From the IMG/VR virus record IMGVR_UViG_3300045243_000079, positions 1 to 45,073 of that record: a DNA stretch of 45,073 nt; one strand, 5' to 3'. A model generated the notes under the pieces. It was not told where the DNA came from. It worked only from the letters and a program-made list of their open reading frames with translations, and did not search any database. The DNA comes from a virus. Both the position numbers and the translations under genes were made by a program. The number at the start of each line of letters is the position of its first letter. The stretch's first letter is position 1. Positions 504 to 31,931 of the stretch are shown one piece after another.

Positions 504-576
504 TGGAGAACACCGGCTCTGCCCCGGTCACCCTCTGCTTGCAAAGCAGACGCTCTCCTGAATGAGCTAGTTCCCC
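504..576 (-). tRNA. tRNA-Ala (UGC), non-canonical T-loop
   Basis: Full cloverleaf: acceptor GGGGAAC/GTTCTCC, D-stem GCTC/GAGC, anticodon stem TCTGC/GCAGA with loop TTTGCAA (anticodon TGC) and T-stem ACCGG/CCGGT. The T-loop reads GGCAGAG instead of the usual TTCRANY, so T54, T55 and A58 are absent while C56 is kept. CCA is not encoded after discriminator A. All four stems are intact, so it is probably expressed, but the T-loop is odd. Confidence 0.88.
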
Positions 577-30581: not shown

Positions 30582-31133
30582 CTAAACCTTAAAAAGAGGG
30601 GAATGTTGTTTTGCACTGCCTTTGCTACCAAGATTTGTAGAGCCCGGTTTTTCTTCTGTGTTTATCTTGGTAGCTTGTTGTAAAGGTTTTAAACTGGCTT
30701 TACTTTTATTTACTTTCTTTTCATTTCTTTTCTTTTCTTTTACGTCTACTTTGTGTGAACCTTGTGTAAACTTTGTTTCTACTTTGTGTACACCATCTTT
30801 ATTTAGAATATGAACACGTCTTTCAGTGTACCTGTCTAATCTCTTTAAAAGCTTTAAATTTCGATACTTACCTTCAGGTGATATATCAAACAAACCTATC
30901 TCAACAAAGTAATCTAAAATGTCTTTGACTTGATTTTCGGGCATGTTAAAACGGCGGGAAAGAACTTCGAGGTCTTGCTCCAACACACAGGATAAATCAT
31001 ACTCCGTAAGTTTGGTTGCAATAAGTTCACAGCACCTAAAGTAAATACCGTAAGCAGCCATCCCATGCTTGATAACTAATTTTTCAAGCTTATGGTCTTC
31101 ACCAGCATTACAGTCGTGACCAAAATATTTCAT
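30582..31133 (-). CDS. Replisome-organiser-like protein (DUF4373/Lin1244-type N-terminus)
   Basis: 183 residues. The start MKYFGHDCNAGEDHKLEKL followed by GMAAYGIYFRCCELIATKL matches the N-terminal winged-helix domain found in phage replication-initiation or replisome-organiser proteins. A second helical unit follows (VLSRRFNMPENQVKDILDYF). The C-terminal 80 residues are a Lys/Ser-rich, probably disordered tail. The ATG at 31133 has AGGGG seven bases upstream; a TTG one codon earlier is rejected. It probably helps recruit the DnaB/loader genes encoded just downstream. Its leader holds the structured RNA at 31155-31274. Confidence 0.75.
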   Translation of the reverse strand: MKYFGHDCNAGEDHKLEKLVIKHGMAAYGIYFRCCELIATKLTEYDLSCVLEQDLEVLSRRFNMPENQVKDILDYFVEIGLFDISPEGKYRNLKLLKRLDRYTERRVHILNKDGVHKVETKFTQGSHKVDVKEKKRNEKKVNKSKASLKPLQQATKINTEEKPGSTNLGSKGSAKQHSPLFKV

Positions 31134-31154
31134 CAATTACCCCTTAAATTAAAA

Positions 31155-31274
31155 AACCTTTGACCGCCAAACAAAACTCTAGTGGAGGGCTCCAAGCGGG
31201 AGGGGTAATCTCGCCTGTTTAAGTAGGTCGGAGGCTACTTAAAGCACTAGAGTCTTGTTAAGCATCCAAAGGTT
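31155..31274 (-). ncRNA. Structured RNA element, four helices with possible pseudoknot
   Basis: Nested perfect or near-perfect helices: P1 31155-31162 with 31267-31274 (8 bp); P2 31171-31184 with 31245-31258 (14 bp, one G-U on the minus strand); P3 31218-31226 with 31235-31243 (9 bp, 8-base loop); P4 31196-31201 with 31209-31214 (six pairs on the plus strand; on the minus strand one becomes A-C). The P3 loop (GGAG on plus, 31230-31233) can pair with CTCC at 31190-31193. On the minus strand it is followed by T6 and then the ribosome site of the replisome-organiser gene. It could be a leader regulator, a terminator for the tRNA operon or an independent small RNA. Confidence 0.6.
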
Positions 31275-31306
31275 AAATTCTCGCCTCTTACCCCAAGGCT
31301 AAAATT

Positions 31307-31329
31307 GGTATACCCTAAAAATTTTTAGG
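31307..31329 (-). promoter_or_regulatory. Conserved AT-rich palindromic element, copy 3 (before structured RNA)
   Basis: Minus strand CCTAAAAATTTTTAGG, a perfect 16-bp palindrome, followed by GTATACC. It is a lengthened version of the CTAAATTTTAG core. It lies between tRNA-Gln and the structured RNA. The stretch 31275-31306 shows nothing else. Confidence 0.5.
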
Positions 31330-31342
31330 TGTCTAATAAAAA

Positions 31343-31416
31343 TGGTTCCCGGCGCTGGACTCGAACCAACATTCGGAGATTCAAAGTCTCCTGTCCTACC
31401 ATTAGACGAACCGGGA
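31343..31416 (-). tRNA. tRNA-Gln (UUG)
   Basis: Acceptor TCCCGGT/GCCGGGA, discriminator A, encoded CCA. Anticodon stem GGAGA/TCTCC, loop CTTTGAA (TTG), T-loop TTCGAGT. Canonical. Confidence 0.95.
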
Positions 31417-31575
31417 AAGCAAACAAATAAACCCGACCACTAAAAACAAAAACGAAATTTCAATTAAAAAGCAAACTGCCATTACCGGAATAGCTTGTCC
31501 GTTCATTGCACCTGCCGGAAATACTTTAAACCATTGTCTTATGTACAACTCAATCAGCCAATTTAACTTTCCCAT
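31402..31575 (-). CDS. Small membrane protein, 57 residues
   Basis: MGKLNWLIELYIRQWFKVFP, then a hydrophobic span PVMAVCFLIEISFLFLVVGF near residues 31-50, ending LLSRFV. GAGGG lies before the ATG. The last 15 bases overlap the 5' end of tRNA-Gln. The gene fills the gap between tRNA-Gln and tRNA-Cys. It could be a small holin-like or accessory peptide. The overlap with a tRNA and lack of homologue knowledge keep confidence moderate. Confidence 0.5.
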   Translation of the reverse strand: MGKLNWLIELYIRQWFKVFPAGAMNGQAIPVMAVCFLIEISFLFLVVGFICLLSRFV

Positions 31576-31848: not shown

Positions 31849-31931
31849 TGGTACGCCTAGCAGGAGTCGAACCTGCATTTACAGCTCCGGTTACGGCTAA
31901 AGAGGTAGAAGCTCTCCCCGGCTATAGGCGC
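31849..31931 (-). tRNA. tRNA-like gene, apparent anticodon UCU (Arg), D-arm missing
   Basis: Acceptor GCGCCTA/TAGGCGT, discriminator A, encoded CCA, and T-arm GCAGG-TTCGACT-CCTGC are canonical. The best anticodon arm is GAGAG-CTTCTAC-CTCTT (TCT). Only eight bases (TAGCCGGG) then remain for the D-arm, while the variable region is about 23 bases with a CCG/CGG stem. An alternative three-bp D-stem AGC/GCT leaves no anticodon stem. Identity is uncertain: it may be an unusual or decayed tRNA. Confidence 0.6.

Follow-up and report, generated by a model that had tools for sequence, protein, structure and literature searches.

What does a strongly folded RNA do in the gap between a tRNA gene and a replication gene of an uncultivated phage? 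The question arises in IMG/VR record IMGVR_UViG_3300045243_000079, a 45,073-base stretch (here the window) from a tailed phage with an SPO1-like portal. A first-pass annotation had marked the fold and offered three functions: controlling the replication gene, ending the tRNA transcript, or being a free RNA. The first of these is the best supported, because leaders of the same architecture precede PF14297 genes or other replication-operon genes in other phages, with compensatory changes there. The pseudoknot that has comparative support is, however, a different one from that annotated, and joins the loop of a previously unseen 5' hairpin to the interior of the closing stem P1. The folded RNA is probably an integral switch, turning the gene that it precedes on or off. 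On balance, we favor a reading in which the RNA, made from the minus strand, is a leader that acts in cis on the PF14297 replication-initiator gene in the manner of an attenuator; its structure is predicted and its architecture is backed by an analogous leader family, while termination, sequestration of the ribosome site (SD) and trans action are what we infer from these.

The folded leader and its three complementary segments

The gap had been placed correctly. On one side lies a tRNA-Gln gene (31343-31416, minus strand), which ends ~37 nt upstream of the 5' hairpin P0 described below, and on the other a 183-aa replication-initiator-like gene (30582-31133, minus strand; ATG at 31133, spanning 31131-31133) that carries PF14297 (Lin1244_N; 47.6 bits) and has a PHROG match to 'replication initiation protein'. 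The phage also encodes PolA, DnaB, DnaG, RecA and a sigma factor, all on the minus strand, and the ribosome sites of its genes are mostly of the AGGAG type. Two tRNA-like genes at 31852-31931 and 504-576 (both minus strand) were detected by Rfam (33.7 and 43.8 bits, respectively) and left uncalled by ARAGORN; the former appears oversized or degenerate.

The multi-helix fold reported over the 120 bases at 31155-31274 is real, comprising a closing repeat and two inner hairpins. Its minus-strand RNA folds at -50.8 kcal/mol (z -6.29), with none of 200 shuffles equally stable, versus -44.8 kcal/mol (z -3.55) for the plus strand. Wobble pairs had left the orientation ambiguous; this asymmetry, taken with the minus-strand sense of the tRNAs and the gene, favors the minus orientation, in which all elements are given here. 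The closing element is a 30-nt imperfect inverted repeat (I1), 80% complementary, whose arms form the 5' strand (31245-31274) and the 3' strand (31155-31184) of P1 in the fold. Enclosed within it are P2 (31218-31243), a 9-bp hairpin with loop CCUCCGAC that coincides with inverted repeat I8 and had been annotated as P3, and P4 (31193-31217), folded as CAGGCGAG-AUUACCCC-UCCCGCUUG. As had been noticed, a T-run and a ribosome site follow immediately: the 3' strand of P1 runs into U6 (31151-31156), followed by AAGGGG and the ATG. The extent first assigned was incomplete, missing both a 5' hairpin, P0 (31276-31306), which the MFE fold gives as AAUUUUAGCCUU-GGGGUAA-GAGGCGAGAAUU with a 7-nt loop, and a 9-nt complement to the ribosome site.

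Three segments of this leader are complementary to one another. The P0 loop GGGGUAA (31288-31294; copy A) and UUACCCC in the P4 loop (31202-31208) are perfect complements, each consisting of exactly seven loop bases, and the pair emerged from unconstrained folding; the class A counterpart of this kissing contact covaries, as described below. The P4 loop region AUUACCCCU (31201-31209; copy B) is in addition a perfect 9-nt complement of the SD region AGGGGUAAU (31136-31144; copy C), so that one segment complements both an upstream and a downstream site, as in RNAs of the phage P4 CI type. Across the whole window AGGGGTAAT occurs twice, in the P4 loop region and at the SD, on opposite strands, and the anti-SD-type complement reached at most 8 nt for all 38 other window genes tested. 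Against leader shuffles the SD match has P = 0.03, and taken alone is therefore suggestive. As isolated duplexes, the P0-loop pairing is worth about -11.7 kcal/mol and the SD pairing about -14.9 kcal/mol. SD complementarity was dropped as a family-defining feature, since the window has it and class A leaders do not. The pairing proposed earlier, between the P2 loop and a segment beside P4 (CCUCCGAC/UUGGAG, about -7.1 kcal/mol as an isolated duplex), is possible but is without comparative support.

The earlier impression that the element matches no nameable RNA family agrees with an Rfam search, which returned nothing within the element and, beside it, only ToxI at 14.4 bits (cut-off 50). A twister or other self-cleaving ribozyme, considered for a plus-strand GGAGGG/UAAUCUCGCC resemblance, was likewise rejected for want of an Rfam match. 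P1 and U6 precede the initiator gene, and a scan with a short-hairpin terminator consensus does not call P1, a long stem whose base is AU-rich and whose interior measures 60 nt, unlike a textbook terminator. Just upstream of P0 (31307-31335, minus strand) a possible weak promoter, TAGACA-17-TATACC, was seen by eye; it fails a strict consensus scan. That scan found no promoter on either strand of window 31100-31450, phage-specific promoters being outside its scope.

Leader families before replication-operon genes

A viral scan for PF14297 was used to collect, from other uncultivated phages, the leaders that precede genes with this domain. Upstream of many of these genes nothing stands out; one group of leaders is strongly folded, with a T-run directly before the SD. 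Among these, class A comprises L132, L137, L138, L148, L167, L189 and L197, together with L126, L128 and L131, which were added via the class A covariance model; members score 60-130 bits with that model (R1). Class A leaders share a layout of a P0 hairpin, a P1 of ~18 pairs enclosing P2 and P4, a U-run and a start codon. Two pseudoknots are formed, the first between the P0 loop and the P2-P4 junction, the second between the P0-P1 linker and the P2 loop. Among five distinct class A sequences, 22 of 43 pairs are changed on both sides with 96.7% of cells paired, and in a test of the structure none of 500 shuffles matched and slid structures came nowhere near. The P0-loop pseudoknot is 100% paired with 3 covarying pairs, its versions including UUGGAGG/CCUCCAA, UUGCAGG/CCUGCAA, UUGACGG/CCGUCAA, UUGGCAG/CUGCCAA, UUGGAAG/CUUCCAA and UGGUGG/CCACCA. 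The linker/P2-loop pseudoknot also has 3 covarying pairs (TCAGTA/TACTGA, TTAGTA/TACTAA, CGGATA/TATCCG, CTAGTA/TACTAG and others). Class A is thus a compact, covarying two-pseudoknot RNA, absent from Rfam 15, that recurs before replication-operon genes of uncultivated phages.

The leader is found one gene upstream of the PF14297 gene in L126 and L131, and likewise, as judged from position, in L128. The L126 leader (L126:1185-1514) stands ahead of a GIY-YIG-like gene, which in turn overlaps the PF14297 gene, so that the leader belongs to the operon and not to a single gene. A divergent leader, L169, stands before a primase-like gene and has its own versions of both pseudoknot pairs; in class A and L169 alike, the U-run is U5-9 and a start codon lies within ~30 nt. 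A consensus scan finds a promoter upstream of P0 in L126 and none in L137, L148 and L189, where -35/-10-like hexamers 17-18 nt apart were seen by eye only.

A second set of leaders, class B (L122, L136, L150, L161, L183 and L185), consists of two long hairpins, the second of which ends in a U-run. By inspection their hairpin loops are complementary, in three versions, and class B leaders would reach the same end as class A by a loop-loop contact with the hairpin that ends in the U-run.

No Rfam family matched in the class A or class B regions when the leader loci were searched; BLAST of class A and B leaders against named phages gave no match, nor did the class A leader of L189 against plasmids. 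In the named PF14297 phages inspected (of Pantoea, Escherichia, Vibrio and Pseudoalteromonas), the gene mostly overlaps or abuts an upstream ORF, and five of them, run through the layout descriptor introduced below, gave no match.

Placing the window leader and its likely mode of action

The class A covariance model scored the window at best at 5.4 bits (E 0.55), so that by sequence and structure together the window leader is not assigned to class A. A search of INPHARED for DNA relatives of the element gave none, nor did single-protein queries of IMG/VR yield relatives, and as no homolog of the window sequence was found, the window's own pairs are without covariation support. A loop-pattern scan of IMG/VR gave as its sole match a coding sequence, rejected as chance.

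Searches with neighboring proteins led to one syntenic viral contig and two contigs binned with archaeal MAGs. IMGVR_UViG_3300032893_000222 and CABMCB010000004.1 keep the window's gene order at ~30-60% protein identity; in these syntenic contigs, of 30 kb and 69 kb, the window's PF14297 gene and the RNA are both missing, so that the two are present or absent together in three phages. The former contig has a strong fold of its own (L093:10150-10265, minus strand; z -6.15) between a 328-aa gene and a HAD-like gene, near which lies a further structure, closed by 8 bp, before a start codon, with no apparent alignment to the window element. The leader of the 328-aa gene (L093:11280-11420, minus strand) contains an 8-bp helix, CCGCAGGG/CCCUGCGG, around a tRNA-like sequence. 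The third contig, PLYI01000099.1, has 84% portal identity and is too short. It is binned with a Bathyarchaeota MAG, yet the phage looks bacterial, and an intein-like or other intervening stretch apparently breaks its terminase gene (L098:1-240) immediately ahead of KDVCDVVCG.

The layout was compared by means of a descriptor comprising a T-run, a stem ending there, a 5-bp hairpin at most 15 nt upstream, and at least 6 loop bases complementary to the stem interior. Across the 1.36 Mb fetched (both strands), matches with at least 18 stem pairs were confined to class A, L169 and the window, and all of them have a start codon shortly downstream. The window's match has a P1 of 28 pairs, a 7-nt pseudoknot and T6, with an ATG ~22 nt downstream that opens a replication-operon gene. 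Shuffling the window's minus strand 3000 times (135 Mb) produced 15 matches with at least 18 pairs, of which none reached 22, a rate to be taken as a guide and not as a formal test because the descriptor was written after class A and the window had both been seen and PF14297 genes are abundant among the fetched loci. Two differences in detail are that the complement of the P0 loop is the P4 loop in the window versus the P2-P4 junction in class A, and that the second class A pseudoknot is missing in the window, where, as read from the sequence, nothing in loop CCUCCGAC complements the linker GAGAAUUU. The window and class A leaders share an architecture, their homology being unproven, which suggests that the design seen in the window arose separately or has diverged beyond recognition by sequence. 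As a tentative possibility, these leaders may form an undescribed terminator-leader family, widespread in phage replication operons, in which a 5' hairpin loop reads the terminator interior and loops diversify between phages as a specificity code for replication control or superinfection; the window would then be a divergent member with the SD as a third matching site.

The order P0, stem, U-run, SD suggests attenuation. With P0 at the 5' end and the 30-nt stem P1, enclosing P2 and P4, leading directly into U6 and then the SD and ATG, kissing between the P0 and P4 loops would determine how well P1 closes and so tune termination. P1 and the U-run would act as an intrinsic-type terminator, most transcripts ending before the ribosome site and leaving a short RNA. 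Because the third site in the window is the SD itself, translation could be controlled as well: in read-through transcripts the P4 loop would serve as an anti-SD that pairs either with the P0 loop, a decoy that leaves the SD free, or with the SD, turning translation off. Candidate inputs that might tip this balance are a complementary RNA, including the terminated leader acting in trans, or the initiator protein.

The CI RNA of phage P4 in immunity and antisense RNAs in plasmid incompatibility provide the comparison for another reading, which we consider rather unlikely: that the leader, once terminated, persists as a stable small RNA and, through its loops, pairs with and represses replication genes in sister copies or in relatives that co-infect. 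The A-B-C layout, with B complementary to A and C, resembles seqA/CI/seqC of P4 (PMC4825925), and a terminator-like end lies ahead of the SD. Class A loops, moreover, differ between phages yet stay complementary, as expected for specificity determinants; any pseudoknot may vary so, however, and trans action is unnecessary. No integrase was found in the 17 leader-bearing contigs, all of which may be fragments, so that lysogenic immunity is unsupported.

Small RNAs are made alongside tRNAs in the T4 tRNA cluster, and the window element might similarly be a stable RNA produced together with the tRNAs, or else serve to terminate or process the transcript of the tRNA operon upstream, in either case without a role for the replication gene. 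The closeness of tRNA-Gln to P0, the terminator-like P1 and U6 and the weakness of the intervening promoter fit such an origin. No tRNA genes were found near the class A and B leaders tested, however, yet these have the same layout; and in the 69-kb syntenic contig the tRNA-Gln that occupies the equivalent position leads straight into another ORF with no such element, which argues that the RNA goes with the PF14297 gene and not with the tRNAs, and makes a tRNA-operon function distinctly unlikely.

A riboswitch-like leader sensing a metabolite or protein, with the class A two-pseudoknot core as aptamer and P1 and the U-run as expression platform, would account for the double pseudoknot, the covariation and the conserved positions in class A. 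We judge it very unlikely, as the loop bases of both pseudoknots vary, unlike those of a ligand pocket, the second pseudoknot is missing in the window, and there is no link to a ligand. That the fold arose by chance, or is a DNA-level palindrome (an origin or protein site) with no RNA role, is hardly credible given the z-score of -6.3, the strand asymmetry and the descriptor rate, even though the window's own pairs are without a comparative test.

Comparison with plasmid and phage control RNAs

To our knowledge, few phage systems (phage P4) have been described in which a structured leader controls replication-gene expression; plasmid initiators provide further cases. The repC-repR-type attenuator of pIP501 has the same design as that of pT181. 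In pT181, a 5' sensing hairpin, loop-loop kissing and an intrinsic terminator precede the replication initiator gene (PMC4878617). The attenuator-type leader proposed for the window is like these in having a 5' hairpin, predicted kissing and a terminator-like stem before an initiator gene. In pT181 and pIP501, however, the anti-terminator resides in the 5' hairpin and kissing involves an antisense RNA made separately, whereas in the window the partner lies in cis, inside the terminator-like stem; unlike in pT181, no antisense gene was identified at the window leader.

IncI-type plasmids likewise have a 5' hairpin loop that pairs with a downstream leader segment, and RepZ is controlled at translation, through a leader peptide and the antisense RNA Inc/RNAI. 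Most class A loops are CUUGNNG, and the window P0 contains CUUGGGG, similar to the UUGG loop of IncI. The reference list of PMC10724649 points, for RepZ-RepA of IncI/IncB/IncK, to a UUGG-motif (UUGGCG) loop that forms a pseudoknot with a leader segment before the initiator's SD. The window leader differs from that of RepZ in belonging to phage genes and in having the layout of a U-run terminator; no leader peptide was identified in it.

Among phage systems, phage P4 halts the transcription of its replication genes through an RNA that is complementary to a site on either side of it, and IsrK of Gifsy-1 yields a terminated short RNA and a read-through mRNA from one promoter (PMC4825925). The window resembles both P4 CI (seqA-CI-seqC) and IsrK, in that a leader RNA complementary to flanking sites precedes replication genes, with premature termination predicted in the window. 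The CI RNA of P4 arises by processing of an untranslated satellite-phage transcript. The window element has no sequence or Rfam match to it. If the loops did act in trans, phages would fall into RNA-based compatibility groups.

Freshwater-2 RNA (RF02980), a cis-regulatory model that ends in a U-run, AAGGAG and AUG, is similar in this respect to class B leaders, but class B L150 scores only 14.4 bits with it against a cut-off of 49.9, and the window gives no match. Separately, an int-alpA RNA (RF02996, 36.1 bits) was detected at L144:645-727, upstream of a PF14297 gene.
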